From a virus: 28,390 nt of DNA. The stretch spans positions 1 to 28,390 of IMG/VR virus record IMGVR_UViG_3300010354_000455. One strand, 5' to 3'. The notes under the pieces are model-generated. The model was not told the origin of the DNA. It worked only from the letters and a program-made list of their open reading frames with translations, and did not search any database. Position numbers and translations under genes: made by a program. Below, in pieces: positions 6,083-27,999 of this stretch. Within the stretch, counting starts at the first letter, position 1. Every line of letters begins with the position of its first letter.

Positions 6083-7345
6083 TCAGAGGTCTGTAGGCTG
6101 CTCTTCGGTTTCGGCGCTACCAATTTTAAAGGCACCGAGAGTGACTTGAGTAACCCGGATACCTTTTTCTAGGTCTGCGGCGCCGGTAAAATAATAACCG
6201 GCAGGGTTTACGGTGAATACCCCAGTAACGGGTAAGCTCTCTCTTAAAGCAGTTTGATGTTCGCGTGTACCCGGTATAAAATAGTTCTGCACTTCCTTTT
6301 TAAAAGTCTCTTCATCTCTAAAAATAGAAGTAGAACATATTAAAATAAAATCACTTAATCTAACTTTAGGATCTACTTCGTCTGCCTTGATATTAAGATA
6401 ACCTCTTACCCGGGCATCTAGTATACGAGCAGTGGTAATATCGGTATTATAGATTTCTTTAATCCATTTAGCAGTATCTGGCACAATTTCTTCTATACTA
6501 GGGTTAGTGGCAAATGCAGTCACTAAAGATGGAAGTAAAGATAGTTTTGGTACTTTAGGGTCTTCTTCAGTAGGGGAGGCAACGGGAGGAGTCGGCACCT
6601 TAACTATGCGAGGTTTTCTTCTATAAGCTTTTGGTGTTTTTACCTTAAAGTCTTTAGAAAAGATAGCTCCAGTAGGTAGTTCCCCAGACTTATCAATAAA
6701 ATATCTATGGGCATTAACCACTATGTCTCCTATTGATAGACCGCCCGGGGTCTTGAATTGGTTTACAATATCTTTACCATTAGCATCTAAACTAATATAT
6801 TTTTCGTACAAAGAATTAATGTCGCGGTGTATTTTATCTAGTAATGGCTTAGCGGCGCGTTTACCTTTAACCCCGGTACGAGCAGGCTTTTTAACAGAAG
6901 TTTCTTTTGATTCGTATTTTAACGGGGTACCTGGATAGTGTACATCATAAGATTTACCACCTCCAGAGACCATATTTTTGTCTTTAATATACTCGAGAGC
7001 TTTTAACACTCCTAAGGATTGAGGTATATTGGTCCCCGCTCTTACAAACTCTTCATATTTGACTGGGTCTAGTCTCGATATAAGCAAAGCCGCAATTGAA
7101 TATTCTCCGCGGCCGGTGCCTTGCTTTGCAGAGTAGTCAAATAAATTTTTTTGTAATTGATCCCATTGGCCGGATGCGCTTGTGTTAGTCTCAACAAACT
7201 CGAACCCTTGTGGCGGGGTAAACGGAGGAATAGCTTCCTGCTCGTCTAGGATATTGAACTCGTACAGGTCTTGTAAACAAAGCTTTTTCTTGTGAGGGGC
7301 TCTATTTAGGATAGATTTGTAAAGATTGTTTAAGCTCACGCGCAT
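6083..7345 (-). CDS. Large hypothetical protein, possible nuclease-like fold (420 aa)
   Basis: ATG at 7345 with a perfect T4-late-like TATAAATA on the - strand 3 bases before it; GTG at 7339 is a possible alternative start. Near residues 75-85 is GTGRGEYSIAALL, and near 130-150 SYDVHYPGTPLKYESKE. G-x-GE, then D, then E-x-K is the order seen in PD-(D/E)XK nucleases of phages, so a nuclease fold is possible but low confidence. The middle is basic and Pro-rich (residues about 240-270), the C-terminus acidic. It is the first large gene after the small-gene region. No homologue recognised with certainty. Confidence 0.65.
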   Translation of the reverse strand: MRVSLNNLYKSILNRAPHKKKLCLQDLYEFNILDEQEAIPPFTPPQGFEFVETNTSASGQWDQLQKNLFDYSAKQGTGRGEYSIAALLISRLDPVKYEEFVRAGTNIPQSLGVLKALEYIKDKNMVSGGGKSYDVHYPGTPLKYESKETSVKKPARTGVKGKRAAKPLLDKIHRDINSLYEKYISLDANGKDIVNQFKTPGGLSIGDIVVNAHRYFIDKSGELPTGAIFSKDFKVKTPKAYRRKPRIVKVPTPPVASPTEEDPKVPKLSLLPSLVTAFATNPSIEEIVPDTAKWIKEIYNTDITTARILDARVRGYLNIKADEVDPKVRLSDFILICSTSIFRDEETFKKEVQNYFIPGTREHQTALRESLPVTGVFTVNPAGYYFTGAADLEKGIRVTQVTLGAFKIGSAETEEQPTDL

Positions 7346-7348
7346 TAA

Positions 7349-7356
7349 TATTTATA
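7349..7356 (-). promoter_or_regulatory. Late-type promoter TATAAATA
   Basis: Exact T4 late promoter consensus on the - strand, 3 bases before ATG 7345 and 9 before an in-frame GTG. Confidence 0.6.
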
Positions 7357-7397
7357 ATCTTTACCGGTTATTCTAGCTTGGAGAACTGTATACAAAT

Positions 7398-7405
7398 AAT
7401 AAATA
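7398..7405 (+). promoter_or_regulatory. Late-type element AATAAATA
   Basis: Seven bases before ATG 7413. The following ATATAT matches the context at 26225-26238. Confidence 0.6.
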
Positions 7406-7412
7406 ATATATT

Positions 7413-7610
7413 ATGGTATTACTACTTATTGCCCTATTAATTGCTAGTATTGGTATCTGGTATTATGTTAACAACGCCAAGTCTGAAGATACTATTAATG
7501 TTAATCCGCCAGCCCCAGGCACCGGTACTCCAGTAGTAGAAGAAACTACTCCGCAGCCACCTGCAACTGATGATGCAGTAGGTCGTAGCGGTACCGATCA
7601 ACAAAGTTAA
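7413..7610 (+). CDS. Membrane-anchored Pro/Thr-rich small protein (65 aa)
   Basis: ATG 7413, 7 bases after a late-type element, no Shine-Dalgarno. Residues 2-19 are a hydrophobic helix (VLLLIALLIASIGIWYYV), either an uncleaved anchor or a signal peptide. The rest is a flexible tail rich in Pro, Thr, Glu and Gly (NPPAPGTGTP, TTPQPP). The form suggests an inner-membrane protein with a tail in the periplasm. Possible lysis or envelope role; no specific family. Confidence 0.7.
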   Translation: MVLLLIALLIASIGIWYYVNNAKSEDTINVNPPAPGTGTPVVEETTPQPPATDDAVGRSGTDQQS

Positions 7611-7640
7611 AGGTCTTAGGTTGCTATATAGAATATTGAG

Positions 7641-7647
7641 TTAAATA
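7641..7647 (+). promoter_or_regulatory. Late-type element TTAAATA
   Basis: TAAATA followed by TTCTGT and ATG 7654 (6-base gap). Confidence 0.6.
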
Positions 7648-7653
7648 TTCTGT

Positions 7654-8226
7654 ATGCAGCGCTGGGATATCATTAACGCTTTAATAGCTAAAAATAACTA
7701 TAAGACGTATTCTGAAATAGGTACGCAGCACGGTAACTGCTTTGTTAATATCAAAGCTGAATACAAAGAGTGCGTTGACCCACAAAAGGTCTTTTCGGGG
7801 TTAACCCACGAAATGACTAGTGATGTATACTTCGCACAAAACACTAAGAAGTTTGATATTATTTTTGTTGATGGCTTACATACCGAGGATCAAACTCGTA
7901 CGGACATACTAAATGCTTTTAATGCCTTAAACCCAGGTGGTACTATAGTTGCCCACGATTGCTTGCCTGATAGTAGAGAGGCAATTCAGCCCTGGTACTG
8001 CGGTACATCTTATATGGCACCGATCTGGTTTAGAACCAATCGACCTGACATAACAGTTCATATAGTTAATACTGATTGTGGGTGTGGTATTTTTAGAGCG
8101 GGTTCAAGTGCCCTTTATACTGCTGCTCCTTATGAAGTAGCTAGATCTTATGATTATTATGCTGCCCACAAAAAAGAATTAATGAACGTACTTTCCGTAG
8201 AAGAATTTAAAAATATTTACGCATGA
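7654..8226 (+). CDS. Class I SAM-dependent methyltransferase (190 aa)
   Basis: Rossmann-type methyltransferase. Motif I-like YSEIGTQHGNCF lies at residues 22-33, an acidic strand end (CVDPQ) follows, then FDIIFVDGLHTEDQTRTDIL and LNPGGTIVAHDCLP, which are the motif IV and post-motif elements of the Methyltransf_24 group. Such enzymes often modify sugars. Its stop overlaps the ATG of the glycosyltransferase (ATGA), so both are translated together and probably decorate the same substrate, for example a virion protein, host envelope glycan or DNA. Substrate cannot be read from sequence. Confidence 0.8.
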   Translation: MQRWDIINALIAKNNYKTYSEIGTQHGNCFVNIKAEYKECVDPQKVFSGLTHEMTSDVYFAQNTKKFDIIFVDGLHTEDQTRTDILNAFNALNPGGTIVAHDCLPDSREAIQPWYCGTSYMAPIWFRTNRPDITVHIVNTDCGCGIFRAGSSALYTAAPYEVARSYDYYAAHKKELMNVLSVEEFKNIYA

Positions 8227-8912
8227 AATTCTCTATAGTTATTCCTACTTATAATCGGTGGGACTTACTTTCTAGATGCTTAAAAAGTATCAAGGACAAT
8301 ACTGATTTAACCGACGGTGAAGTAATCGTTGTTTCAAACGGCTGTACTGATCATACTCCGTTTTACTTTGACGAAAACTTTAAAGACAAAAACTTTCATT
8401 TAGTTCATTGGCCTAAACCTTTGGGCTACCCTAAAGCAGTTAACATGGGCATGTCGGCTGCTACTGGTGATATAGTAATACTGTTAAATAACGATATAGC
8501 TATACTTGGTAATAGTTGGTATAATATATTAACCGAGCCATTTACCACAGATCCTAGGGCCGGTGTGACTGGAGTTATAAAAAGATATCAAGGCGGCAAA
8601 CCTTGGATACTATTCTTTTGTGCGGCAATTAAACGAGATGTTATTAACAAGATAGGCCTGCTTGATGAAACGTTCACTCCTGGTTGCGGAGAAGACATTG
8701 ACTACTGCATGAGAGCGTTTAACGCTGGATACAGTATTGTACAGACTCCAGACGAAAACCTTTCAAATATTACCGGTACTAACAAAATGACAGGCACATT
8801 TCCTATCTTTCACGAAGGAGGAGTTACAGTAAATAAGAACCCGGACCAAAATACAATATATGCCCGTAATATGAGAATAGTAGAAGAGCGCTACGGCCCA
8901 CCTAACTATTAA
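8223..8912 (+). CDS. Family 2 glycosyltransferase (229 aa)
   Basis: GT-A fold, family GT2. N-terminal FSIVIPTYNRWDLLSRCL (residues 3-20), VIVVSNGCTDHT (nucleotide-binding strand), GYPKAVNMGMSAATGDIV, then LLNNDI in the DXD position (residues about 89-94). Near the C-terminus GEDIDYCMRAF provides the usual acidic ED pair. The length equals a bare catalytic domain with no membrane segment, so it acts in the cytoplasm on a soluble acceptor or sugar carrier. ATG 8223 overlaps the methyltransferase stop. The stop overlaps the end of the converging gene. Confidence 0.88.
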   Translation: MKFSIVIPTYNRWDLLSRCLKSIKDNTDLTDGEVIVVSNGCTDHTPFYFDENFKDKNFHLVHWPKPLGYPKAVNMGMSAATGDIVILLNNDIAILGNSWYNILTEPFTTDPRAGVTGVIKRYQGGKPWILFFCAAIKRDVINKIGLLDETFTPGCGEDIDYCMRAFNAGYSIVQTPDENLSNITGTNKMTGTFPIFHEGGVTVNKNPDQNTIYARNMRIVEERYGPPNY

Positions 8913-9487
8913 AGCCAAAAGGCGACTCTACCAAATATTTGGCTAAGTTTAGAAAAACCACGGTACCAGATACGATGTGCAAACCAGCGGTAAAGTCTAG
9001 TATGGAGAAAAAAACGATTGTACCATTTGCTTTGTTCTATACGAAATTTTTCTTTCCATTCTTTTTCTCTTTCTAAACGCTCTGTATTATCTGTTTTTTC
9101 AAACTTTACTAGCTCGTATCTATCTACAATTCCATTGCTGAATACTGCTTTAAACTCAATCCAGCAGTCCCACTTGTCTTGTACGTTATTTTTAAAGTCG
9201 TAAAAATATATTTCTCCGTGATAGGGTACAGGATCGAGATAAGGTTCTTCTCTTTTAAGACGACCTATTCTATCTAGATAGTGTTTTGCATTTGGATCTC
9301 CTTGTTCCCATTCCTCTTTTTTAAACTTTTCTAGAAATAACTTTCCGCCCTGGATATAATACTGGCTCAGAGTATTCTCAAGGTCTTTAGTTTGAAAGGA
9401 ACTATCATTAATATTTAATCCAAGCTCTTTCATCTCGTCCGAGTAAGGTAACGAGTCAGATACGCTAATAGTGTCGAACATTCCCAT
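8909..9487 (-). CDS. Conserved phage hypothetical protein (192 aa)
   Basis: Starts MGMFDTISVSDSLPYSDEMK and continues with SFQTKDLENTLSQYYIQGG. I recall the MGMFD start, LP and FQTKDL motifs from a group of uncharacterised proteins in large phages. The middle (YHGEIYFYDF, WIEFKAVFSNG) looks beta-rich; the C-terminal third is highly charged, then aromatic and basic (WYNRFFLHTRLYRWFAHRIW), perhaps a membrane- or nucleic-acid-contacting helix. A TAAGTA element lies 15 bases before the start. Its last 4 bases overlap the glycosyltransferase end. Confidence 0.75.
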   Translation of the reverse strand: MGMFDTISVSDSLPYSDEMKELGLNINDSSFQTKDLENTLSQYYIQGGKLFLEKFKKEEWEQGDPNAKHYLDRIGRLKREEPYLDPVPYHGEIYFYDFKNNVQDKWDCWIEFKAVFSNGIVDRYELVKFEKTDNTERLEREKEWKEKFRIEQSKWYNRFFLHTRLYRWFAHRIWYRGFSKLSQIFGRVAFWL

Positions 9488-9532
9488 ATGCTTATAGTAT
9501 AATACTTATACAGGAATTCTACAGATATCTTG

Positions 9533-9538
9533 TAAATA
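9533..9538 (+). promoter_or_regulatory. Late-type element TAAATA
   Basis: Followed by TTACAT and ATG 9545 (6-base gap). Confidence 0.55.
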
Positions 9539-9544
9539 TTACAT

Positions 9545-9907
9545 ATGGCACGTAATACGTATAAGTTGCTTGGAGAGCGCTATTTAGAAGTAGAGCTCAA
9601 TTCTAACGGCACTCATAAATCCACTCACAATGTAGATATGGCGCGTACTAAAGCCAATCAAGCAGCAGAAGTAGCCCCAGAGCTTTATCAGCTTTTGCAA
9701 CAGTTAGATCCCAATGAACCGTTACATGCATGGATGGTTACTCACGTAACTCAAGCAGCAGATATGCTACAAGATGTACTTGCTGCTTTAAAAGAAGATC
9801 TTGCTGAACCAAGCACCATTCCAGTTAAAGAAGGTGAATTTGAACCTAACCCAATGGATGGAGAAGATGGTACATATCTATCTAGCGATATAGAAGGAGC
9901 AGTTTAA
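9545..9907 (+). CDS. Acidic hypothetical protein (120 aa)
   Basis: ATG 6 bases after a late-type element. The central part is helical (NQAAEVAPELYQLLQQLD, then HVTQAADMLQDVLAALKEDL), and the C-terminal 30 residues are acidic and probably disordered (FEPNPMDGEDG). No family recognised. The next gene begins 1 base after its stop and uses an AAGGAG within this gene's last codons, so the two form an operon. Confidence 0.7.
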   Translation: MARNTYKLLGERYLEVELNSNGTHKSTHNVDMARTKANQAAEVAPELYQLLQQLDPNEPLHAWMVTHVTQAADMLQDVLAALKEDLAEPSTIPVKEGEFEPNPMDGEDGTYLSSDIEGAV

Positions 9908-9908
9908 T

Positions 9909-10478
9909 ATGAAGAAAAATTATCAATACACCAAACTTACTAGTAAATACGAATTAATTAGCGAAGCTCACTTAAACTTTAAAAAAGAAATGTTTAAGGA
10001 AGAGTGTTGGGACGCTACTTCTAATGCTCCCGTAGCTGAGTGCTGGAATGAATTTGGCCAAATAAAAGAACAGTGCTGGTCTCACCCTTCCCACAGTATG
10101 AGAGGCGGGCCGTTAAAGAAAGAAATGTTTAGAGAAGAATGCTGGGATATGACTTCTAATAGTCCTGTACCAGAATGCTGGAATGAATTTGGAGAAATTA
10201 AACAAGAGTGTTGGTCTTCAGAGCCTGGCGCTCAAACAATGACTACCCCAGGCTATGCTGGCTCTGCTGGTGGAGATAGTATTAGCGAAAGCACTAAAGA
10301 CCCAATTGAATTAGTTTTAAAAGAAGCTAATGAGCTTAAAAAATCTCTTAAGAAGTTACAAGAAAAATATGCTAAGCGTCCCGGTTTTGCTGCAAATATT
10401 CTTAAAGAGAATCAAAAGCGTTTAGCTACTCTAGAATTAGATCTAGAAGTATTAAAGAGCGAAGTTAATAAAGGTTAA
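9909..10478 (+). CDS. Protein with two Cys-Trp repeats and a coiled-coil tail (189 aa)
   Basis: AAGGAG at 9896-9900 precedes ATG 9909, an unusual true ribosome binding site for this window. Residues about 25-58 and 72-106 are a tandem repeat: KKEMF(K/R)EECWD, TSN-PV-ECWNEFG, then IK-(Q/E)CWS. Each repeat has three Cys-Trp pairs. The last 60 residues form a helical, Lys/Glu-rich coiled coil (ANELKKSLKKLQEKY and later KRLATLELDLEVLKSE). It may be a virion or scaffold component; that is inference. The end overlaps the converging ligase-like gene by 4 bases. Confidence 0.75.
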   Translation: MKKNYQYTKLTSKYELISEAHLNFKKEMFKEECWDATSNAPVAECWNEFGQIKEQCWSHPSHSMRGGPLKKEMFREECWDMTSNSPVPECWNEFGEIKQECWSSEPGAQTMTTPGYAGSAGGDSISESTKDPIELVLKEANELKKSLKKLQEKYAKRPGFAANILKENQKRLATLELDLEVLKSEVNKG

Positions 10479-12139
10479 GCCCCTTTAATTATATTATATA
10501 CGTCCTGCAGGTTATTAATATCTGTACCTGCAGGAGTCTTAGCCATACCAGCTCTAAAGGCTTCAAAATCGCCTTGTTGAGCTGCCTGTCTTACTTTAGA
10601 CGCGCTCATACCCGCTACTCCTTCAGAGTCAGGATCTCGTTCTCCCGCGCTAACAAATATATATTCCGGGATGTTAAATAATATTCTACCTTGTCTATCA
10701 GGCTTATTATTATAGGTATTAACTATTTTTTCAAACTCTGGTAATCTATCTGACCCTGCTATATGAAATACTTTCTTGTACCCTTGTTCGTTAAGAAAGC
10801 GTAACATTTCAAATAATGTTTTACCTTGAGGCATTACCAATACGTTATTAGGTAAGACTTGTTTAAGTACATCTACCTTGGTGTTATAGTCCAAAGGGTT
10901 TTTATCAGAGTCGTGACTGTAAGTAGGGAACACAGCAATTAATTGTGCGTTATTTTTTGTTCCAGTATCTATTAAAGTTTTAATTAATGCTTGGTGTCCA
11001 ATAGTAGGCGGATTAAATCTACCATAAGTTACTACTGCTGTTTTGACTGAAGGTAATGAAGCGTTAGTAGCTGGCTTACGGAATGCGCTCATTTGATTTC
11101 TAATAAAGAAATCGCCAGTTATTTTAAATTGTTCGTCAGATATGGTTGGGGTATTTATTACTATACCTTCCTGTTCAGATGCCTTGTTACCTAGTTCTGA
11201 AGTCATTACATCGAGCAATGCTTTACCCATTAATCGAGTAGTTTGCCAGAACACAATATCGTTAACAGCTGTAGGTAAACTTTTAGGGGCTACTAATTTG
11301 GTTAAGTCTTCGCCGCGTTCTGCTACTGCTATATATAAGGCTTGATTACTACCCCCTACCACTTTACCATCAGCAAGAGTAATAGTTTTAGTGTTAGGGT
11401 TTGTAGCTCTACTTAACCATCCGCTTAAAGGCTTAGTCTCATTAGCCAAGGTTAAAGGAGAGTTAAGCACTTCCTTAAAATTAGGAGTACCAGTTAATCT
11501 AGTAGCTATTTGATGTATTACTTTAAAGCCTGCAGGGGTAGCAAACTTATTTACTTTAGCTACATATGCATTTAAAAGTTTGCTGTTATAAGGCAGCATT
11601 GTATTTTCGTACGTCTTTGTCTTTTTTACTGCGCTTACTGACTCAACCACTTTACCGGTATAATGAATAGCTAAAAACTTCTCTGCATAACCAATAACGT
11701 TAGTAGCTCCGTCAACATACTCCATATTAAAGAACACCAACGGGTTATCATATAATCCTAGTTGTTTTAGTTCTTTAGCTGTATCCTGTATAGAGGCGTT
11801 AAAAATTTTTAAAACTTCAGTACCAAATTTAACAAAGTTTTGATTTTCTGGAAAACGAGTCGGTAGATAATCTATAGTAGCCGGCGGCCCTTCTATATCT
11901 TTTTTAGCTCCTCTATAAATTGCAAACTGCTTACCTCGAGGGGTGTCTACTAAGCGTATACTTGCATTAACCCCGTCTATCTTTAAAGGTACAGTAGTAT
12001 TAGCAAGATAAGATGCTGTTTTATAAAATATGTCAACTAAATCTTTGCCAGTTTTTACTTCAGGTAGATCTATAGGGTGATACATATGCCCACCAGCGCC
12101 ACCTTCTTTAAGTAAAAAATAATGTTTAAAATCGAGCAT
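10475..12139 (-). CDS. Fusion of ligase-like nucleotidyltransferase and NMNAT/cytidylyltransferase-like domain (554 aa)
   Basis: The N-terminal ~350 residues contain the ordered signatures of covalent nucleotidyltransferases (DNA/RNA ligase superfamily): motif I LKIDGVNA with candidate nucleophile K53, an acidic FFNMEYVDG (E140) in the motif III region, motif IV EGIVI (324-328) and a motif V-like FKI (K339). The C-terminal ~190 residues are an HxGH-type nucleotidyltransferase: YGRFNPPTIGH (372-382) with Thr in place of the first His, HIAGSDR, and GMSASKVR near the end (ISxSxxR motif). Phage enzymes of this second type act in NAD synthesis or repair. It directly follows the baseplate/fibre genes. 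Activity of either half is inferred. Confidence 0.75.
   Translation of the reverse strand: MLDFKHYFLLKEGGAGGHMYHPIDLPEVKTGKDLVDIFYKTASYLANTTVPLKIDGVNASIRLVDTPRGKQFAIYRGAKKDIEGPPATIDYLPTRFPENQNFVKFGTEVLKIFNASIQDTAKELKQLGLYDNPLVFFNMEYVDGATNVIGYAEKFLAIHYTGKVVESVSAVKKTKTYENTMLPYNSKLLNAYVAKVNKFATPAGFKVIHQIATRLTGTPNFKEVLNSPLTLANETKPLSGWLSRATNPNTKTITLADGKVVGGSNQALYIAVAERGEDLTKLVAPKSLPTAVNDIVFWQTTRLMGKALLDVMTSELGNKASEQEGIVINTPTISDEQFKITGDFFIRNQMSAFRKPATNASLPSVKTAVVTYGRFNPPTIGHQALIKTLIDTGTKNNAQLIAVFPTYSHDSDKNPLDYNTKVDVLKQVLPNNVLVMPQGKTLFEMLRFLNEQGYKKVFHIAGSDRLPEFEKIVNTYNNKPDRQGRILFNIPEYIFVSAGERDPDSEGVAGMSASKVRQAAQQGDFEAFRAGMAKTPAGTDINNLQDVYNIIKGA
10503..10535. repeat. Inverted repeat TCCTGCAGGT ... 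ACCTGCAGGA
   Basis: Arms at 10503-10512 and 10526-10535 are perfect 10-bp complements with a 13-base loop. It lies 25 bases past the + strand stop at 10478 and inside the 3' end of the - strand gene, so it could act as a transcription barrier for the + strand. No T tract. Confidence 0.5.
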
Positions 12140-12140
12140 A

Positions 12141-15883: not shown

Positions 15884-15889
15884 TATTTA
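15884..15889 (-). promoter_or_regulatory. Late-type element TAAATA
   Basis: Reads CTAAATA on the - strand, 5 bases before ATG 15878. Confidence 0.6.
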
Positions 15890-18186: not shown

Positions 18187-18192
18187 TACTTA
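18187..18192 (-). promoter_or_regulatory. Late-type element TAAGTA for gp25
   Basis: Seven bases before ATG 18179. The divergent gene at 18218 has its own TAAGTA at 18202-18207. Confidence 0.55.
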
Positions 18193-18201: not shown

Positions 18202-18207
18202 TAAGTA
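18202..18207 (+). promoter_or_regulatory. Late-type element TAAGTA for 18218-19249
   Basis: Ten bases before ATG 18218. Confidence 0.45.
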
Positions 18208-20171: not shown

Positions 20172-20620
20172 TATTTTTTGTCAGAAGAACCGAACCCCTT
20201 TTCGCCACGAACAGTCTCTACTACTTGATCGGTCCATTCAACATTTGCTTGAATAAGAGGATATACAATTAACTGAGCTACTTTATCTCCTTTAAAAATA
20301 TAAACATTGACATCGCTAAAATTATAAAGCTTTACCCCCATATCCCCCCGGTAAGGGTTATCAATAATACCAAAATGAGGGAATACATGCCTCTTAAACC
20401 CCATACCTGAACGGCCTTCAACTCTAAACCAATATCCTGGAGTTACATAACCTAACTTAAGGCCTACTGGCACTGTAACCCAACCTTTAGCTGGAATAAT
20501 GACATCTTCTACAGCAGTTACATCAAGACCTGAGTCCCCGGTATATGGATCACTATAATTATACTTAGGCAAAACAGCTGCATCATGTGTCTTAACGAAT
20601 TTAATAGTTACTGGAAACAT
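20171..20620 (-). CDS. dut: dUTP diphosphatase (149 aa)
   Basis: Hydrolyses dUTP to dUMP, keeping uracil out of DNA and feeding dTMP synthesis. All five trimeric dUTPase motifs are present in order: SGLDVTA (motif 1), EGRSGMGFK (2), GIIDNPYRGDMG (3, with catalytic Asp), GDKVAQLIV (4) and RGEKGFGSS (5, the C-terminal P-loop-like arm). ATG 20620 is preferred since FPVTIKFVKTHD is the usual family start; in-frame ATG 20644 and TTG 20665 would add unrelated residues. A 10-bp direct repeat (ATAGAGTATG) lies just upstream. Coupled to gp44. Confidence 0.93.
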   Translation of the reverse strand: MFPVTIKFVKTHDAAVLPKYNYSDPYTGDSGLDVTAVEDVIIPAKGWVTVPVGLKLGYVTPGYWFRVEGRSGMGFKRHVFPHFGIIDNPYRGDMGVKLYNFSDVNVYIFKGDKVAQLIVYPLIQANVEWTDQVVETVRGEKGFGSSDKK

Positions 20621-20665
20621 ATAGAGTATGATAGAGTATGCCATTGATAAATCAATGCTTGCCAA

Positions 20666-20671
20666 TAAGTA
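20666..20671 (+). promoter_or_regulatory. Late-type element TAAGTA
   Basis: AATAAGTA followed by TTCTTA and ATG 20678 (6-base gap). Confidence 0.6.
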
Positions 20672-20677
20672 TTCTTA

Positions 20678-21274: not shown

Positions 21275-22175
21275 AGTAAACCGTTACTATTACCATACAT
21301 AGTACAGTCACCCCCACCACTGTACCTATAACCCAGGTAGGGGCGGTGGCAATAGTATAGGCAAGTGCAAATGAAGATATAGCAACTATACCCATGTTAA
21401 TACTTTTCATTAACCCTGCTGCTATAAGAAATAATATACCCACGCCAACTAAAGCTTTAATCATATAACCAAGATATTCTTGTTTTTGAGCTTCTTTAGC
21501 TAAAGCTAGTTTATCTTCAGCTTCTTTTTTTACTCGCTCTATTTCAGCAGCTTTTTCTGCATTAAGTTTGTCGAGAGCGGCTTTATTATCAGCTCTCATT
21601 TTAGCTTTTTCATCTTCTTTTTGTTTAATTAAATCTGTAGCTTTTTGGTAAGCATCAGCTGCAGCTTTAGAATCTTCAAAAAGCTTTTCATATTTTTTAA
21701 GCAATTCAGCAGAAGTTCTTTTACGATCTGCATCTACCTCTTGCTTTATTTGATCTTGCATCGTAATAGGTAAAGGGTCAAGACGAAACATATTTTCTTT
21801 AGCTCTAAAATGCGCAATAGCAAAATCTATATCAGTATCTTTTTTAGCTTCAGTTGCGTATAATATACCGAAATTGGTCTCGCTAATTTTTTTAAAATTA
21901 GCGTTATCTATTTCTTCTCTCTTTTTATACGCATCAGCTAACCCTTTACGAAACTCTTCATATTCTTGTTCTATTTTTTTACGGGCTTCTTCTACCTTTT
22001 TATCTGCTTCGCTCAATTGCGCTACACCTTTTCTATCTTTATCAGCTGCTGCTACTGCTCCTGCTGTAGCACTACCACCGCCTAAACTCTTCCATGACTC
22101 AGGCATTTTAAGTCCGGGTATTAACGTACATCCTGTGAACAAAATTGGCAATAAAAGCGCGCTTAGTTTTTTCAC
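21216..22175 (-). CDS. Lipoprotein with long coiled coil and C-terminal membrane helices; spanin-like (319 aa)
   Basis: GTG start at 22175, 5 bases after a TAAGTA element. The N-terminus is a lipoprotein signal with lipobox LFTGC (Cys16). Residues ~55-225 form a long charged helical region (EEARKKIEQEYEEFRKGLAD; LDKLNAEKAAEIERVKKEAE), likely coiled coil. Three hydrophobic segments follow (~232-252, 256-275, 280-300) and a basic tail (KLKEKEKKQK). A lipid anchor at one end, a membrane anchor at the other and a helical span between is the layout of unimolecular spanins, which disrupt the outer membrane at lysis, but this one is much larger than T1 gp11. Alternative: a structural envelope protein. 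Confidence 0.75.
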   Translation of the reverse strand: MKKLSALLLPILFTGCTLIPGLKMPESWKSLGGGSATAGAVAAADKDRKGVAQLSEADKKVEEARKKIEQEYEEFRKGLADAYKKREEIDNANFKKISETNFGILYATEAKKDTDIDFAIAHFRAKENMFRLDPLPITMQDQIKQEVDADRKRTSAELLKKYEKLFEDSKAAADAYQKATDLIKQKEDEKAKMRADNKAALDKLNAEKAAEIERVKKEAEDKLALAKEAQKQEYLGYMIKALVGVGILFLIAAGLMKSINMGIVAISSFALAYTIATAPTWVIGTVVGVTVLCMVIVTVYSKLKEKEKKQKSQEPPANQ

Positions 22176-22180
22176 ATAAA

Positions 22181-22186
22181 TACTTA
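22181..22186 (-). promoter_or_regulatory. Late-type element TAAGTA
   Basis: Five bases before GTG 22175; it lies just after the hsp20 terminator. Confidence 0.55.
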
Positions 22187-22189
22187 CAA

Positions 22190-22217
22190 TAAAAAAGGGA
22201 GAGATTTCTCTCTCCCT
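22190..22217 (-). terminator. Intrinsic terminator of hsp20
   Basis: On the - strand AGGGAGAGA pairs with TCTCTCCCT (22196-22204 with 22209-22217) over a 4-base loop, followed by a T tract of about six. Confidence 0.85.
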
Positions 22218-22239
22218 TGTGTATCAACTTGCAATACAG

Positions 22240-22656
22240 TTAGTTAATATCAATAACTTTCTTGCCGCCGTTTTCCACTTTGTTCTTAGGAAATACCAAA
22301 GTAAGAACACCATCTTTCTGTTCAGCCTTAGCTTTATCCAAGTTGTAACTATTACCAACAGTAAAACTGCGGCTAAAGGTTTCCTCTTGCGATCCACCCT
22401 TATGGATGACCTTACGAGCACCTTCAATAGATACTACTCGGCCCTCTACTGAGACCGTTGTTTTATCTTTGGATACACCGGGAAGATCCACCTCTACAGT
22501 GAGTTCGTCCCCCTCTTTAAACCTAACAGTGTCCCCTGTTCGGCTCACGTCACCCCAAAAGAAAGGATGATCGAATGGATCCCTATTGAAAAAGGATTCA
22601 ATAAGGGATGTTGGATTTCTGTATGTGTTACTATTATTGTAGTTAGTTAGTTTCAT
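22240..22656 (-). CDS. hsp20: Small heat-shock protein, Hsp20 family (138 aa)
   Basis: ATP-independent chaperone with an alpha-crystallin domain, frequent in marine T4-like phages. SLIESFFNRDPFDHPFFW is the usual phobic N-terminus; GDELTVEVDLPGVSKDKTTV opens the crystallin domain, and DGVLTLVFPKNK is the GVL signature near the C-terminus. The C-terminal KKVIDIN carries the I-x-I/V-type oligomerisation tail. ATG 22656 (MKLTNYNN) is preferred over an upstream in-frame start at 22695, which would overlap nrdA. A TAAATA element overlaps the nrdA stop, giving a short leader with a hairpin. Confidence 0.92.
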   Translation of the reverse strand: MKLTNYNNSNTYRNPTSLIESFFNRDPFDHPFFWGDVSRTGDTVRFKEGDELTVEVDLPGVSKDKTTVSVEGRVVSIEGARKVIHKGGSQEETFSRSFTVGNSYNLDKAKAEQKDGVLTLVFPKNKVENGGKKVIDIN

Positions 22657-22661
22657 AGTAA

Positions 22662-22675
22662 TGCGTTTGCACGCA
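22662..22675 (-). promoter_or_regulatory. Leader hairpin with GCAA tetraloop before hsp20
   Basis: In the - strand RNA TGCGT-GCAA-ACGCA forms a 5-bp stem with a GNRA-type loop, ending 5 bases before the hsp20 ATG. With the TAAATA at 22680-22685 as promoter, the transcript would begin almost at this hairpin. Confidence 0.45.
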
Positions 22676-22679
22676 AAAT

Positions 22680-22685
22680 TATTTA
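22680..22685 (-). promoter_or_regulatory. Late-type element TAAATA for hsp20
   Basis: CATAAATA on the - strand, sharing bases with the nrdA stop codon, 23 bases before ATG 22656. Confidence 0.45.
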
Positions 22686-23573
22686 TGATTCGCAACTAGC
22701 GCAAGATAATATAGAACGAGCTAGTTCTTGCGCTGGATTTGCTGAGCGTTGATAGTATAAGCTCTTTATTCCGTTTTCCCAAGCAAAAATTAGTAAATCA
22801 TTGACGTCCTTAGGCTTAGTATTAGGCGGAATCATTAAATTTAATGATTGGCCTTGATCAATAAACTTTTGTCGGGCAGCTGCTTGTATAACAATTTCTT
22901 TTTGACTGATTTCTCCAAATGTCTTAAATACGTCTTTTTCTTCTTGGGTCAAAAAGTCAAGATGCTGAACCGAGCCACCTTTAACAAGTATAGACTTCCA
23001 GGTATTATCAGAGTTCTTACCTTTCTTTTCAAGGAGAGCTTCAAGATAAGGGTTCTTGTATGTAAATTTGCCCTTAGCTAGATCTTTAACGAAATAGTTG
23101 GAGTTGAGCGGCTCTACCGATGGAGATGCCTGGCCAAGAATAAAAGAACTTGAAGTCGTTGGCGCTACCGCAAGAGTGGTTACATTACGACGACCGTAAC
23201 CCTTAAGTAGTGGTGGTTCTCCGTAGTGCTTAGCTAGTTCTTCAGAAGCTTTGTCAGCTCTTTCCCGTACAAATCTCCAAATTTTGGTGTTAAGAAATTT
23301 TGCTTCTATTGATTCAAACGCAACCATTTCAGATTGAAGAAATGTATGCCAACCAAGAGAACCAATACCAAGAGCTCTTTGATTAATAGCGAAGTTTCTT
23401 GGGTGAGCCATAAACTTCATCTTTTCAGTCTTGTTGATAAACTCAGTCATTACTGAATCGAGAAAATATACAAGAGTTTCAACTGCATCAGTATCTCTCC
23501 ACTCATTCCACTTTTCAAAATTAAGAGAAGAGAGATCGCAAACAAATGACTCATCTGGACCGTTAGAAAGCAT
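22683..23573 (-). CDS. nrdA: NrdA C-terminal fragment (296 aa from the first ATG)
   Basis: Part of the interrupted nrdA. A restart at ATG 23573 would begin just after SNLCTEI, so the fragment alone lacks the thiyl-radical Cys. It contains the rest of the barrel (PTTSSSFILGQASPSVEPLN loop) and the C-terminal YY and CASC elements. No ribosome binding site is seen before 23573. Confidence 0.7.
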   Translation of the reverse strand: MLSNGPDESFVCDLSSLNFEKWNEWRDTDAVETLVYFLDSVMTEFINKTEKMKFMAHPRNFAINQRALGIGSLGWHTFLQSEMVAFESIEAKFLNTKIWRFVRERADKASEELAKHYGEPPLLKGYGRRNVTTLAVAPTTSSSFILGQASPSVEPLNSNYFVKDLAKGKFTYKNPYLEALLEKKGKNSDNTWKSILVKGGSVQHLDFLTQEEKDVFKTFGEISQKEIVIQAAARQKFIDQGQSLNLMIPPNTKPKDVNDLLIFAWENGIKSLYYQRSANPAQELARSILSCASCES

Positions 23574-23708
23574 AATCTCGGTGCAGAGGTTACTATGATG
23601 AATCTTTAGCTTTTTATCTTTATATACTTCAGGGGCTTGTTTGTTAGCATTATCTGTAAAAAAGATATAAGGATACCCAGACTCAAAGCGTTTCTTAATA
23701 ACTAAGCC

Positions 23709-24335
23709 CTAAATCCTACGCTTTTCTTTATCTCCGTCAATCATTGACTTGAACCATTCATCTGAAATACAAACCCCAATAGAGAGATTCTGGATAGTAT
23801 CGCCTTCTTTACGAATATTAAGAAACTCTTCAATGTCCTTATGATCGATAGGCAGATATGCTGCAAATGATCCACGACGCACGTTTCCTTGCGATATATA
23901 GTCAGTCAAGGACTCAAACACAGTAAGCTGATGATGCACCCCGGTTGACTCTCCGCCAGAGCTAATTTTAGCTCCGCGTGGTCGAATAGCTCCAAAAAAA
24001 CCAGATGTACCACCACCTGCTTTAGACATAGTACCCACTTCAGAAATCTTATACAAGATTGCATCCATATCATCATCAACATAAGACCCGAAACAAGATA
24101 TAGGCAAACCACGTTCGCGGCCGAAATTAGCCCAAATAGGAGATGCAAGAGAGTAAAACCCTTTATGCATATAATCTTCAAACTTATCAGCAAAGCCTTT
24201 AAGCTTGAGATACCCTTGGGCAGCTTCAGCAATATCTCTTATACGTTGTTCTGCTGTTTCGTTTTCTAGAAGATATCCTCGTGCGAGAAATTTTCTAGAG
24301 TCAGTATTCAGCCAATAAATACCCTTGTTTGTCAT
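23709..24335 (-). CDS. nrdA: NrdA N-terminal fragment ending at the amber codon (208 aa)
   Basis: Part of the interrupted nrdA. It carries SPIWANFGRERGLPISCFGS, the GGGTSGFFG loop and RGSFAAYLPIDHKDIEEFLN, but none of the catalytic Asn/Cys/Glu triad. ATG 24335 has TAAGTA 13 bases upstream. Alone it cannot be an active reductase. Confidence 0.75.
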   Translation of the reverse strand: MTNKGIYWLNTDSRKFLARGYLLENETAEQRIRDIAEAAQGYLKLKGFADKFEDYMHKGFYSLASPIWANFGRERGLPISCFGSYVDDDMDAILYKISEVGTMSKAGGGTSGFFGAIRPRGAKISSGGESTGVHHQLTVFESLTDYISQGNVRRGSFAAYLPIDHKDIEEFLNIRKEGDTIQNLSIGVCISDEWFKSMIDGDKEKRRI

Positions 24336-24366
24336 AAAGCGTAAAATGTACTTACCCGGGGGTTAA

Positions 24367-25338
24367 TTAAAATAAATCGTCTTCTGAAAAACTTTGCGAT
24401 TTTTTTGAATACTCTACAGGACGAGAGTGAAAAAAATCTGTCATATTATTACCGAGTAATTCTTCGTTGAACCAAGCTGTATGCTTAAGTAGTTCGTTAT
24501 TAGGTTCAAAAGCTGGAGGAAAATTAATACCTCTGAGAGATTCATTAATACGATCTTTAATAAATTCTTTAAGGTGCGCTGCTGAAAGCCCGTCTTCCTT
24601 AACCCCATTAACCATCCAATCAATAATTTTAGCTTCACTTTCGTATGCTTCTACTGCTTCGTGGAGCACTCTTTCTTCCAGTTCTTTATCAAAGAGCTCG
24701 GGATATTCTTCTCTAATAGTGTTAATAATTTTCATACCGACTAGAGCATGAATGTTTTCTTCGTTGCGCGTATATTTGACTTGTTGATCGGTATCTTTAA
24801 GTACGTTTTTGTTACGAGCAAACCAATTAATAACGTAGAACTGACTCATTAATGATACATTTTCTACAAATAAAGTAAAAAGAATAAGAGCGTATAGATA
24901 CTGCTTTTCCTTACCCTTATAGTAGCGATGGGTATACTTTTTGAGGTATTTTACTCGGCCTTGTATCCACTCGAGCTTAAGATTCTCTTCAAATACATCT
25001 TCGAGGCCGAGAACGGTAATAAGTCTTTCGTAGGCATTATTATGAATAACTTCTGTGTTAGCCATAACATATCCTAAATCTTGCAATGCAGGGTGTGGCA
25101 GATTTTCTCCAAGCTTTGCCCAAAACGTTTTTACCGCTACTTCGATTTGACCAATAGCAGATAGAGTACGAATAATAATTTCGCGTTCTTGTTCAGTAAG
25201 ATTAACTTTGAACTGCTGCACATCAGACTTAAAGCTGAATTCTTTATCAGTCCAAAAGCCATTATGCATTGACTCAATAAAGTCTTCAGTCCAAGGATAA
25301 TGATTAGGTTTACGCGAAATTTGTTCGTCAAAAATCAT
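24367..25338 (-). CDS. nrdB: Ribonucleotide reductase beta subunit (323 aa)
   Basis: Class Ia RNR small subunit carrying the di-iron centre and tyrosyl radical. Ligand motifs are intact: TEVIHNNAYERL gives E96 and H99 with radical Tyr Y103; FVENVSL gives E159; RNEENIH gives E194 and H197. The sixth ligand, Asp in E. coli, is probably E66 (QIEVAVK). The C-terminal SFSEDDLF is the acidic, Phe-ending tail that docks into NrdA. It lies 31 bases upstream of nrdA on the same strand. TAAATA lies 8 bases before the ATG. The intact tail suggests a working NrdA partner exists or was lost recently. Confidence 0.95.
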   Translation of the reverse strand: MIFDEQISRKPNHYPWTEDFIESMHNGFWTDKEFSFKSDVQQFKVNLTEQEREIIIRTLSAIGQIEVAVKTFWAKLGENLPHPALQDLGYVMANTEVIHNNAYERLITVLGLEDVFEENLKLEWIQGRVKYLKKYTHRYYKGKEKQYLYALILFTLFVENVSLMSQFYVINWFARNKNVLKDTDQQVKYTRNEENIHALVGMKIINTIREEYPELFDKELEERVLHEAVEAYESEAKIIDWMVNGVKEDGLSAAHLKEFIKDRINESLRGINFPPAFEPNNELLKHTAWFNEELLGNNMTDFFHSRPVEYSKKSQSFSEDDLF

Positions 25339-25346
25339 GGGAATAT

Positions 25347-25352
25347 TATTTA
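25347..25352 (-). promoter_or_regulatory. Late-type element TAAATA for nrdB
   Basis: Eight bases before ATG 25338. Confidence 0.5.
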
Positions 25353-25433
25353 CGTATTGTAAATGAGTTTGACCTTTTTTCTATAAAAAAAGTTGTATTT
25401 TATTCGCCAGTGAATTCGACGGAGTTAAAAGAG

Positions 25434-26204
25434 TTATCCCTTTTTATTATAAAGTTCTAATTTTTTTACTATATATTTAACAATTTCGCTTCTTACTATA
25501 TCTTCTTCTGTTAAGTAAAATACGTGAATGCCCTTTTCTTTGCTTTCATTATCGTTAAAAACATTACACATTTTTTCAAAACCAGATTTACCGTTAATGT
25601 CTGATTGCATTGGATCTCCGCAAACAAATAGTTTACTAAAATGCCCCACGCGGGTGAGTAAGGTTGTAAGCTCTCTAAAGGTACTATTTTGAGCTTCATC
25701 CATAATAATGCCTTTTGCGTTCCAGCTCAATCCTCTAAGGAACCCAGTAGGTTTACCGTCAACTCTTTTTTCTTTTAATAATGTGTTAACGTCTGCAGCA
25801 AATAAAAGTTCATCCAATTTTTCCATTAACGGCTCGAGATAGGGAGATAACTTTTCTTCAGCACTACCCGGAAGATATCCCATTTTATTATCACTACTTT
25901 CTACTATAGAACGTATATAAAGCAAATCACTTACTTTTTTAAGATTCATTAACTCTAATACTGCTAGTGTTGCAAGAAAACTCTTACTACTACCTGACGG
26001 GCCAGATAGAAACATTATCTTAGTATTATTGTCTAATGCTAATTTAAGAAAATCTTTTTGTTTGTTTGTTAAATCCGGTCTTTGTCGTATTTGTACCGGT
26101 CTTTCTAATTTTTGTGCCTGATGGACTATTGGGCTTTTGTCTTTGGCATTTTCGTTATTGTTGTGAGTTTGTTTCTGTTTAAGCAAACGTTTCTTTTTAC
26201 TCAT
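25434..26204 (-). CDS. phoH: PhoH-like P-loop ATPase (256 aa)
   Basis: PhoH-family ATPase, common in marine T4-like phages, role in infection unresolved (RNA metabolism or phosphate stress are proposed). After a basic, Gln/Asn-rich N-terminus of about 40 residues, LTNKQKDFLKLALDNNTKIM leads to Walker A FLSGPSGSSKSFLAT (K74). SDLLYIRSIVESSDNKMGYL and the family's EEKLSPYLEP follow, then Walker B GIIMDEAQNST and VCGDPMQSD. All match PhoH. TAAATA lies 6 bases before ATG 26204. Divergent from the small gene at 26239. Confidence 0.94.
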   Translation of the reverse strand: MSKKKRLLKQKQTHNNNENAKDKSPIVHQAQKLERPVQIRQRPDLTNKQKDFLKLALDNNTKIMFLSGPSGSSKSFLATLAVLELMNLKKVSDLLYIRSIVESSDNKMGYLPGSAEEKLSPYLEPLMEKLDELLFAADVNTLLKEKRVDGKPTGFLRGLSWNAKGIIMDEAQNSTFRELTTLLTRVGHFSKLFVCGDPMQSDINGKSGFEKMCNVFNDNESKEKGIHVFYLTEEDIVRSEIVKYIVKKLELYNKKG

Positions 26205-26210
26205 CTATTA

Positions 26211-26216
26211 TATTTA
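26211..26216 (-). promoter_or_regulatory. Late-type element TAAATA for phoH
   Basis: Six bases before ATG 26204; only 10 bases from the divergent element at 26227. Confidence 0.55.
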
Positions 26217-26226
26217 CTTAAAACAA

Positions 26227-26232
26227 TAAATA
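26227..26232 (+). promoter_or_regulatory. Late-type element TAAATA for 26239-26550
   Basis: AATAAATA then ATATAT then ATG 26239; the same string precedes ATG 7413. Confidence 0.6.
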
Positions 26233-26238
26233 ATATAT

Positions 26239-26550
26239 ATGTTTAAGCAATTTGATTCCAAGGTAACTGAGTTATTAAAAGAATTTGTAGACACTTTTCC
26301 TGTAGAAGTACAAGAAAAGAAAGGCGCGCGCTGCACTAAAGTAACCGGACAACAGGCATCATCTCGTAGCGATAAAAAATATATGCGCTGTACCCGGGTC
26401 GGCGGCAAATTAAAAAGAGTGCATTACGGGGATCCTAATTTGCGTATTAAAAAATCAAACCCTAAGCGCCGCAAATCTTTTAGAGCGCGTCATAAATGCT
26501 CAAGCGCAAAACCAGGCACTGCAAAATATTTTAGCTGCAAAAATTGGTAA
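26239..26550 (+). CDS. Small basic Cys-containing conserved phage protein (103 aa)
   Basis: The C-terminal 50 residues carry HYGDPNLRIKKSNPKRRKSF, then RARHKCSSAKPGTAKYFSCK with final NW. I recall this GDP-IKKSNP-RRKSFRARH-C-C-W block as a widespread module in large environmental phages, function unknown. Earlier, RCTKVTG and MRCTRVGG give two more Cys, so four Cys could bind zinc. Strongly basic, therefore perhaps a virion DNA- or capsid-binding protein. ATG 26239 is 6 bases after the late-type element. Its end abuts the converging 480-aa gene. Confidence 0.8.
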   Translation: MFKQFDSKVTELLKEFVDTFPVEVQEKKGARCTKVTGQQASSRSDKKYMRCTRVGGKLKRVHYGDPNLRIKKSNPKRRKSFRARHKCSSAKPGTAKYFSCKNW

Positions 26551-27993
26551 TTAGCCCTGTAAGAGCATATTAACGCTAGCCCATAAATCGGTTGTTGATG
26601 TTAAAGCGCGCGCCGCTATTACCATTATATCCGGGGTGCCATTAATTTTTATTCCTAATCTACCTAGATCTGCTAAAAATATATTAGAAGATTGAGACAC
26701 TGCTACCCCTTGACCGCTAGCTAAAAAGCTTGAGTATAGAGTGTACCCCCCACTCAAACTTAAAGTTGCGTTACCATAAGCAAATTCGACTTTTTCTAAA
26801 CCAGTTTCTCCTGCAGGCAACCAATTTAAATTACCACCTGTAACAGTAGGATTAAGCCATACTCTATACTGTATATTTCTCGTACCAGTATTAAACATTT
26901 GAACATCGCTTAATCTTAATGCTAAATTTGCGGCGCCCGGTGCTATTCTTACTGCTATAATTGGTCTATAAGAAGTATCGACACTTAAAATTGCACCGCT
27001 TAGATCTGCAGTAATATTGGTACCAACAGTATCTGATACTCCTTCAGAAATAGAAGCGCTGCATATATGACGCATTGACCCGCTTCCAGGACCGACTTGT
27101 CTGATCTCATATCTTATAGGTTGATTGGGGGAGGTAATGTATGGGGCTACAACACTATTAAAATGAGTAAATTGATGGGCTATGTAAAGTTTACCTGCTA
27201 CATAAAAACCACACCTAACTCGCCCTACCCCCAGCCATTCATAATCCATGTGGAATATTTGAGCTTTGGTCCAATCTAAAGACAAACCAGAAGGCCCTGT
27301 TCCGTCTAGAGGGTCTACATTCCAAGCAGATTGAGACACTACTTCTGTATTAGTAACACCGGTGCTTTTTAATATATTTAACGTTACATCAGTGCCTGTT
27401 ACTTCTAGAAAAATACCGTCAGTAGGGGTATAAGGGGCCGCTGAAAGACTTTGAAATTGGCCAACTCTTTTAATTATATTTGTTTCTTTTGAAAAGGTGC
27501 CAGTAAAAACTGCTACTTGACTTTTACCAGGTTGATAATTAAATCTAGCGGTTGTTTGTCTGACAACATAATCCCCAGAAGCTGCAGTAGACATTAGTAC
27601 ACAACTATCTCCTGGTACGTGTATACTTGAAGCAGAACCATATGTTACTTCGTCGTATAACCATGGCATTTTACTATATTGTTGCTTACCGTCAAATAGA
27701 GTGGCCGGTGCAGAAACTCTTAATCTACCAAATGCATCTAAGGATGCATTATCTCCAAAAGGACTACTATTAGATTCTGCAGTGCTTATATCAGATACTA
27801 ATAAAGCGGTTTTACGATAAACGTAAGTGGTAGAAACTGAAGGTACTGTAGTTAAAGTATCGCTGTTAAATCTAGTTTCTACCTGTACAGTAGAAATTGG
27901 AGGGTATGCCGTAGTATCCGGAAATATAATAGCATTAGCAAGTCTAGACGAAAAGTCCGGGTAGTTAACTGTTACAGGCGGATTTACAGGCAT
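26551..27993 (-). CDS. Virion structural protein (480 aa)
   Basis: Located directly downstream of gp23. The Ser/Thr/Val/Gly-rich composition and regular beta pattern point to a virion protein. Residues ~75-100 hold SSPFGDNASLDAFGRLRVS and TLFDGKQ, a motif I recall in structural proteins of large phages and related viruses. Later QSAWNVDPLDGTGPSG, LDWTKAQIFHMDYEWLGVGR and HQFTHFN suggest a jelly-roll or lectin-like fold. It could be a capsid decoration or fibre protein. ATG 27993 has TAAGTA 6 bases upstream. No Shine-Dalgarno. Confidence 0.75.
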   Translation of the reverse strand: MPVNPPVTVNYPDFSSRLANAIIFPDTTAYPPISTVQVETRFNSDTLTTVPSVSTTYVYRKTALLVSDISTAESNSSPFGDNASLDAFGRLRVSAPATLFDGKQQYSKMPWLYDEVTYGSASSIHVPGDSCVLMSTAASGDYVVRQTTARFNYQPGKSQVAVFTGTFSKETNIIKRVGQFQSLSAAPYTPTDGIFLEVTGTDVTLNILKSTGVTNTEVVSQSAWNVDPLDGTGPSGLSLDWTKAQIFHMDYEWLGVGRVRCGFYVAGKLYIAHQFTHFNSVVAPYITSPNQPIRYEIRQVGPGSGSMRHICSASISEGVSDTVGTNITADLSGAILSVDTSYRPIIAVRIAPGAANLALRLSDVQMFNTGTRNIQYRVWLNPTVTGGNLNWLPAGETGLEKVEFAYGNATLSLSGGYTLYSSFLASGQGVAVSQSSNIFLADLGRLGIKINGTPDIMVIAARALTSTTDLWASVNMLLQG

Positions 27994-27999
27994 ATTATA

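Follow-up and report, generated by a model that had tools for sequence, protein, structure and literature searches.

Where does a late messenger RNA begin when the late promoter lies almost on top of the start codon? This question is raised by a 28,390-nucleotide viral DNA (IMG/VR record IMGVR_UViG_3300010354_000455, positions 1 to 28,390, hereafter the window), for which an earlier note proposed that a T4-late-like TAAATA or TAAGTA precedes eleven start codons by 5-8 bases, with four looser cases, on both strands. As T4 late transcription starts about 6 bases past its box, the note inferred that these mRNAs should start at the AUG and suggested, together with an early gene array, that phage and host translate leaderless mRNA routinely. 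The analysis described here indicates that the arrangement belongs to an uncultured, mostly freshwater group of T4-like phages, in which late mRNAs would begin at, or within a few bases of, the first codon, leaving no room for the usual ribosome-binding site. Early promoters are placed in the same way, so these phages appear to dispense with that site altogether.

Late boxes in the window

Recomputation of every coordinate showed that the observation holds, all eleven tight and four loose spacings being exact (Table 1). Eleven of 23 curated late-region starts carry TAARTA 5-8 bases before the start codon, whereas dinucleotide-preserving shuffles of the same upstream sequences give a mean of 0.36 (maximum 3 in 3000), any position in the late region gives 0.0055 (0.13 of 23 expected), and other ATGs in the late region give 1 of 540. 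Among 60 permutations of its own letters TAARTA is the best, with 11 cases against 7 for the next, which overlap it. The condition set beforehand as fatal to the idea, that the motif be equally frequent at random AT-rich positions, is thereby not fulfilled. Only one of the 23 starts has a strict Shine-Dalgarno sequence (9909, an operon-internal gene).

Table 1. Predicted promoter elements in the window; spacing is the number of bases between the box and the start codon.
Position	Strand	Element	Spacing	Start	Gene	Orthologues and remarks
7349..7354	-	late box TAAATA (in TATAAATA)	3	ATG 7345		an in-frame GTG at 7339 would lie 9 bases from the box (GTG start inferred)
7400..7405	+	late box TAAATA	7	ATG 7413		
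7642..7647	+	late box TAAATA	6	ATG 7654	methyltransferase-like ORF	
9503..9508	-	TAAGTA	15	ATG 9487		box in 0 of 8; probably not this gene's promoter or a wrong start
9533..9538	+	late box TAAATA	6	ATG 9545		box in 3 of 5 at 5-6
15884..15889	-	late box TAAATA	5	ATG 15878	tail-fibre-like	box in 5 of 6 at 5-6
18187..18192	-	late box TAAGTA	7	ATG 18179	gp25 baseplate wedge	box in 17 of 18
18202..18207	+	late box TAAGTA	10	ATG 18218		mostly 5-14
20666..20671	+	late box TAAGTA	6	ATG 20678		box in 6 of 9
22181..22186	-	late box TAAGTA	5	GTG 22175		box in 14 of 14, 13 at spacing 5
24349..24354	-	late box TAAGTA	13	ATG 24335	NrdA N-terminal part	weakly conserved
25347..25352	-	late box TAAATA	8	ATG 25338	NrdB	13 of 44 at 6-8
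26211..26216	-	late box TAAATA	6	ATG 26204	PhoH-like	14 of 18 at 6-8
26227..26232	+	late box TAAATA	6	ATG 26239		11 of 12 with a box (10 at 5-8, 1 at 12)
28000..28005	-	late box TAAGTA	6	ATG 27993	virion structural protein	2 of 2 at 6
3023..4550	+	early gene array; sigma70-type promoters (TTGCMA-N16-CATACT/CATCAT)	close before ATG			

Spacing edges and conservation across the clade

The pattern belongs to a large clade. Among 1478 starts (1030 non-redundant) from about 210 related viral loci, the box-to-start spacings of the non-redundant set rise abruptly from 2 cases at 4 bases to 84 at 5, followed by 59 at 6, 36 at 7, 29 at 8, and a decay thereafter. T4 positions its box at -13 to -6, about one helical turn from +1 (PMC2988020), so that a spacing of 5 puts the A of AUG at +1, and the edge at 5 is what this geometry predicts if nothing may lie upstream of AUG. 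The spacing-5 class also has 86% pyrimidine just before AUG, as expected at a start site, against a background of 61%. Early sigma70 -10 hexamers in the same genomes show their own edge at 6 (relative G001: 0 at 5, 12 at 6; relative G002: 0 at 5, 10 at 6), the value expected for a hexamer at -12 to -7, while T4, Syn9, and HTVC008M show no such peak. Shine-Dalgarno sites are at chance level, strict motifs being found at 1 of 24 late-region window genes and at 10/201, 11/235, 3/136, 2/136, and 2/96 genes in five large relatives, compared with 82/244 in T4 and 56/177 in HTVC008M.

Box and spacing are conserved at orthologous genes whose upstream DNA has diverged (Table 1), although not at gp44 (0/32 at 5 or more) or gp6, and 20 of 44 nrdB orthologues lack the box. 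Boxes favor non-internal genes, as in relative G006 (23/74 against 5/62 internal) and in G001 (35/145 against 9/90). Boxed genes in G006 encode the portal, head-tail adaptor, tail tube, baseplate hub, endolysin, and tail fibre, whereas helicase and QueC genes are unboxed and carry sigma70 promoters; besides such structural genes, nrdB and phoH are boxed too.

Comparison with the T4 late promoter revealed that the match is to a variant of the 8-bp TATA box related to TATAAATA: TAARTA is preceded by A in 53% and by T in only 12% of cases, the second upstream base is not T-rich, and G is common at the fourth position. The 30 bases upstream of 231 boxes show no conserved position beyond the base next to the box, hence no conserved -35 element. 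A gp55-like sigma was detected in 12 of 21 large relatives (PHROG 234) and could be aligned with T4 gp55 over the sigma-2-like core, while the window itself, a 28-kb fragment, carries no gp55 gene. By eye, most of these proteins appear to lack a counterpart of the C-terminal hydrophobic clamp-binding tail of T4 gp55 (DFLYEAND). The co-activator gp33, which is small and divergent, was not found in 12 relatives with PHROG 254, although it was found in T4 and HTVC008M, and a divergent homologue of the gp45 sliding clamp was present in 4 of 12 relatives, including the close ones G005, G006, and G012. With gp33 undetected and the gp55 tail apparently lacking, activation may differ from that in T4.

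Proposed T4-type late transcription with little or no leader

Taken together, these data support with high confidence a model in which TAARTA is the -10-like box of a T4-type late promoter, read by host core RNA polymerase carrying a phage gp55-like sigma. In this view, transcription starts at the A of AUG or a few bases before it, giving late mRNAs with no leader or a leader of 0-3 nucleotides (tail to about 11) and no Shine-Dalgarno site, and early genes follow the same rule with host sigma70 promoters. Ribosomes would then start the first gene by 5′-terminal AUG recognition, and internal genes by coupling or other Shine-Dalgarno-free initiation. Motif, spacing edges, absence of Shine-Dalgarno sites, conservation, the gp55-like gene of relatives, and the late functions of boxed genes were established computationally, whereas the actual RNA 5′ ends, the use of the box by this sigma, and the mode of ribosome recruitment are inferred. 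The interpretation given in the earlier note is thus partly supported. Its core inference that late promoters abut the start codon gains strong support from the comparative evidence, but a start exactly at the AUG applies only to spacing 5, since other spacings imply leaders of about 1-11 nucleotides and those of 9-16 give short leaders rather than none. Operon-internal genes are not leaderless but simply lack Shine-Dalgarno, and the claim that the host routinely translates leaderless mRNA remains a suggestion, no host having been assigned.

Other explanations appear unlikely. TAARTA might be an A/T-rich translation signal substituting for Shine-Dalgarno, because phages and bacteria without Shine-Dalgarno often have A/T-rich sequence before the start codon and the internal genes here are G-poor just upstream of AUG. 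However, boxes are several times rarer at operon-internal genes, which also need translation, the motif is the T4 late consensus, a gp55-like sigma is encoded, boxed genes are late by function, and early genes use a sigma70 -10 in its place with an edge shifted by one base. It is similarly improbable that the boxes are genuine late promoters while translated mRNAs mostly come from promoters further upstream and carry ordinary leaders. Although some genes lie in same-strand runs and could also be read from upstream, many boxed genes are divergent or first in a run, no Shine-Dalgarno site exists for a leader to deliver, and the spacing is tightly constrained, which an unused start would not explain.

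Mis-called gene starts, with true starts downstream behind a Shine-Dalgarno site, are very unlikely to account for the pattern, even though starts were taken mechanically as the first ATG and gene 7345 may start at a GTG two codons downstream. None of 152 boxed ORFs in five relatives has a Shine-Dalgarno sequence plus an in-frame start in the first 90 nt, relatives of NrdB, gp6, and gp44 align from residue 1, and boxed starts in HTVC008M coincide with independently deposited annotation where checked. Chance due to composition (about 60-65% A+T in the late region) is refuted by the shuffles, permuted motifs, and other ATGs, and T4 and cyanophages of similar A+T content show no such peak.

A bolder reading, considered more likely than not, is that a whole lineage of T4-superfamily phages has abandoned Shine-Dalgarno initiation in both early and late genes and runs on leaderless mRNAs, with a rewired late system (TAARTA box, gp55 without the canonical clamp-binding tail, no recognisable gp33). 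This would imply hosts in which leaderless or Shine-Dalgarno-free initiation is the normal mode, and HTVC008M, with a mix of exactly leaderless and Shine-Dalgarno-led late genes, would represent a cultured intermediate. T4 late transcription is the textbook phage late system and its mRNAs carry Shine-Dalgarno leaders; a T4-like clade in which early and late promoters both sit at the start codon would show that the leader is dispensable in this system. The spacing edges at 5 and 6 also provide a sequence rule for calling gene starts and promoters in uncultured phages.

Host search and related systems

To identify a host, GTDB genome contigs were scanned with gp44, which found no relative, and with NrdB, which gave 10 contigs in MAGs labelled Flavobacteriales/Flavobacteriaceae, Verrucomicrobiales, Opitutales, Cytophagaceae, Lokiarchaeota, and one Phyllobacterium isolate. 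These loci look unlike this clade and none of these genomes carries a detectable gp55, so no host was assigned. A leaderless sigma70 pattern is enriched in some genomes of the phylum of the Opitutales MAG (27 matches against 1 in controls, 59 genomes) and not clearly in the phylum of the Flavobacteriales MAG (7 against 4, 61 genomes), a weak lead to Verrucomicrobiota only. Bacteroidota were considered because they lack Shine-Dalgarno, but the early promoters are of the ordinary sigma70 type. Phage-encoded ribosomal protein S21 was considered as a mechanism, but it was found in relatives G001, G003, G004, and G008, in HTVC008M, and in Melnitz but not in the closer relatives G005, G006, and G012, and so cannot be the general explanation. 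Isolate records hold only distant homologues, with identities of at most about 28% for gp6 and about 38% for gp44.

No report of leaderless late mRNAs in T4-like phages, cyanophages, or pelagiphages was found in a literature search that left out most subscription papers. T4 late promoters (TATAAATA, gp55-gp33-gp45) share the TATA-like box at the -10 position, the lack of a -35 element, AT-rich sequence downstream, the gp55-like sigma (in relatives), and downstream structural genes, but T4 boxes peak 21-29 bases before AUG with Shine-Dalgarno leaders, here 5-9 with none, and the box here tolerates G at its fourth position. The T4-like cyanophages S-PM2, Syn9, P-SSM2, and P-SSM4 have a NATAAATA-type box placed 19-29 bases upstream. 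Phage-wide leaderless middle/late transcripts occur in Thermus phage phiYS40 (reviewed in PMC3594737), an unrelated phage whose host phylum is itself rich in leaderless genes (PMC3160421) and in which no T4-type late promoter is known to be involved. Leaderless genes of Actinobacteria and Deinococcus-Thermus, with a TA-like signal about 10 bp before the start, show the same diagnostic geometry (PMC3160421), but these are cellular sigma70 genes and a minority there, whereas here many first genes of both kinetic classes are concerned.

The cultured Pelagibacter phage HTVC008M makes leaderless late translation directly testable, as it carries 12 TAAATA boxes at a spacing of exactly 5, including those of the gp25, tail tube cap, head closure, and DNA end protector genes. 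Examples of spacing-5 genes are those at 6280, 7562, 11972, 19456, 31132, and 49760, whereas genes such as 36520 and 46046 have the box at 18 to 21. A survey of pelagimyophages reported that late-promoter prediction failed in them (PMC7029224), which the placement described here may help explain. HTVC008M follows a mixed strategy, with other genes being Shine-Dalgarno-led, and the sequence after its boxes is mostly GT.

Late boxes at gene starts of the window and its relatives

The earlier note listed fifteen gene starts with TAAATA or TAAGTA shortly upstream, and this observation held, since recomputation showed all fifteen spacings to be exact. Of 23 curated starts in the late region, 11 have TAARTA 5-8 bases before the start codon, while dinucleotide-preserving shuffles of the same upstream sequences gave 0.36 on average and never more than 3 in 3000 trials, and only 1 of 540 other ATGs in the region carries the motif at this distance. 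TAARTA also outperformed all other arrangements of its own letters, so the pattern is real and not a product of A+T content. The late region encodes T4-superfamily proteins, namely the gp6 and gp25 baseplate wedge proteins, the gp44 clamp loader, dUTPase, Hsp20, NrdA/NrdB, PhoH, a virion structural protein, and glycosyl- and methyltransferases. Isolated phages hold only distant homologues (at most about 28% identity for gp6 and about 38% for gp44), but IMG/VR holds over two hundred related loci, many of which, judging from their dataset numbers, are presumably from lake samples.

To examine the pattern at the population level, ORFs were predicted mechanically in these loci, and the position of TAARTA was recorded for 1478 distinct starts (1030 after removal of similar upstreams). 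Two boxes fall at a spacing of 4, followed by 84, 59, 36, 29, 23, 14, 19, and 14 at spacings of 5 to 12, with a decay to background by about 17. The lower edge is the key feature of this distribution. T4 late boxes lie at -13 to -6 (PMC2988020), which leaves five bases before +1; a spacing of 5 therefore makes the A of AUG the predicted first transcribed base, whereas a smaller spacing would cut into the start codon, and the observed edge is exactly there.

If these phages avoid leaders in general, early genes using host sigma70 should show an edge one base further out, because a -10 hexamer occupies -12 to -7. Scanning of box-less, non-internal starts for TTG-N-TATAAT-type promoters gave roughly this result: the relatives designated G001 and G002 have 0 promoters at spacing 5 against 12 and 10, respectively, at spacing 6, G005 and G006 each have 2 and 4, and G012 has 0 and 4. 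No such peak was found in T4, Syn9 peaked at 22-26, and HTVC008M was scattered. The two promoter classes thus agree, each with its own geometry, on AUG at or just after +1. By eye, the window’s own early array looks the same, for instance TTGCCA-N16-CATACT with 6-9 bases to ATG.

Strict Shine-Dalgarno motifs precede 1 of 24 late-region genes of the window and about 1-5% of genes in five large relatives, which is about chance as estimated from base composition, but 34% in T4, 32% in HTVC008M, and 15% in Syn9. Internal genes also lack the motif and are G-poor just before AUG. Mis-called starts do not explain the pattern, as none of 152 boxed ORFs in five relatives contains a Shine-Dalgarno-led alternative start in its first 90 nt.

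Conservation at orthologues and the late transcription machinery

Comparison of orthologues revealed that the box and its spacing persist where other upstream sequence has diverged. The box is present before gp25 in 17 of 18 distinct relatives, before gene 22175 in 14 of 14 (13 at spacing 5, although the start codon is GTG in the window and ATG in relatives), before phoH in 14 of 18, before gene 26239 in 11 of 12, and before the tail-fibre gene in 5 of 6. Operon-internal gp6 and early-type gp44 lack it, while NrdB is mixed, with 20 of 44 having no box within 20 bases. Gene 9487, where the window’s box lies at 15 bases and 0 of 8 orthologues have one, should be dropped from the fifteen. At 7345, where the spacing is 3, an in-frame GTG at 7339 gives a spacing of 9 and, by inference, may be the real start.

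A gp55-like late sigma is present in 12 of 21 large relatives and aligns with T4 gp55 over the sigma-2-like core, and divergent clamp homologues occur in the close relatives. However, gp33 was not detected in the relatives, and most of the gp55-like proteins (from the related loci L214-L225) end without an obvious counterpart of the clamp-binding tail of T4. Either these elements are too divergent to recognise or activation is organised differently, and the coupling of late transcription to replication may differ from that in T4. In G006, the boxed genes include portal, head-tail adaptor, tail tube, baseplate hub, endolysin, and tail fibre, while sigma70-type starts precede a helicase and QueC.

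Inferred mode of expression and comparison with other systems

In the most likely mechanism, host sigma70 polymerase would initially start at the AUG of early genes, and a gp55-like sigma would later direct the core enzyme to TAARTA and again start at the AUG or a few bases before it. The resulting 5′ AUG is presumably bound directly by 70S ribosomes or by 30S with initiator tRNA, with internal genes starting by coupling. The transcriptional half of this scheme rests on strong evidence, albeit from sequence alone, whereas the translational half is an inference from established knowledge of leaderless mRNAs. The interpretation in the earlier note, that these mRNAs should start at the AUG, is therefore supported in part: leaders of 1-11 nucleotides are predicted for spacings above 5, so that ‘leaderless’ in the strict sense applies to part of the set.

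The late-box peak lies at 21-29 in T4 and at 19-29 in cyanophages. The cultured pelagiphage HTVC008M is the exception, with 12 TAAATA boxes, mostly followed by GT, at a spacing of exactly 5. Those that could be checked (up to 50 kb) lie at deposited gene starts, including gp25, tail tube cap, head closure, and DNA end protector. They coexist with Shine-Dalgarno-led late genes with boxes 18-21 bases upstream, so that two late-gene architectures occur in one cultured phage. A published survey reported that late-promoter prediction was unsuccessful in pelagimyophages (PMC7029224). Leaderless middle/late mRNAs are known in Thermus phage phiYS40 (PMC3594737), and leaderless genes with a TA-like signal about 10 bp upstream are common in Actinobacteria and Deinococcus-Thermus (PMC3160421), but no report of a leaderless T4-type late system was found within the open-access literature searched. 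Among cellular genomes in the phylum of the Opitutales MAG, several (G036, G055, G041, and G081) contain 3-6 exact sigma70 promoters with the -10 box 6-7 bases before ATG, against almost none in the reversed-pattern control, suggesting leaderless genes in some Verrucomicrobiota, although this hint is only a pattern count.

Additional features of the window and its relatives

Coordinates of additional features in the window, its relatives, and HTVC008M
Feature	Sequence	Position	Strand
C-free stretch	window	1507-2993	+
ORF in C-free stretch	window	1548-1787	+
ORF in C-free stretch	window	1810-2217	+
ORF in C-free stretch	window	2242-2604	+
ORF in C-free stretch	window	2646-2963	+
nrdA region	window	22683-24335	-
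nrdA ORF	window	23709-24335	-
nrdA ORF	window	22683-23573	-
tmRNA gene	L266 (relative G006)	8439-8842	
Twelve TAAATA boxes at spacing 5	NC_020484 (HTVC008M)	6280-142360	
Ribosomal protein S21 gene	G001, contig C1	15868-16029	

The window carries a 1,487-base stretch without a single C on the + strand (G 34%, T 35%, A 31%), whereas the next longest C-free run is 45 bases. It holds four consecutive intact ORFs, whose proteins therefore lack P, H, Q, A, and T. G is raised as well, so simple C-to-T conversion does not explain this composition. No relative of the 1810 ORF was found in viral contigs, and three of the ORFs had no Pfam match. Elsewhere in the window, nrdA is in two ORFs matching different parts of the same family with a gap between them, which may reflect a frameshift, a split gene, or an assembly error.

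Among the relatives, G006 encodes a tmRNA (Rfam RF00023, 103.5 bits) with an unusually long predicted tag, GIVNSLKGAFAAPVAALAAFFSTEELQFAA, inside a cluster of 22 tRNA genes. Phage-encoded ribosomal protein S21 occurs in part of the wider clade, namely in G001, G003, G004, and G008.
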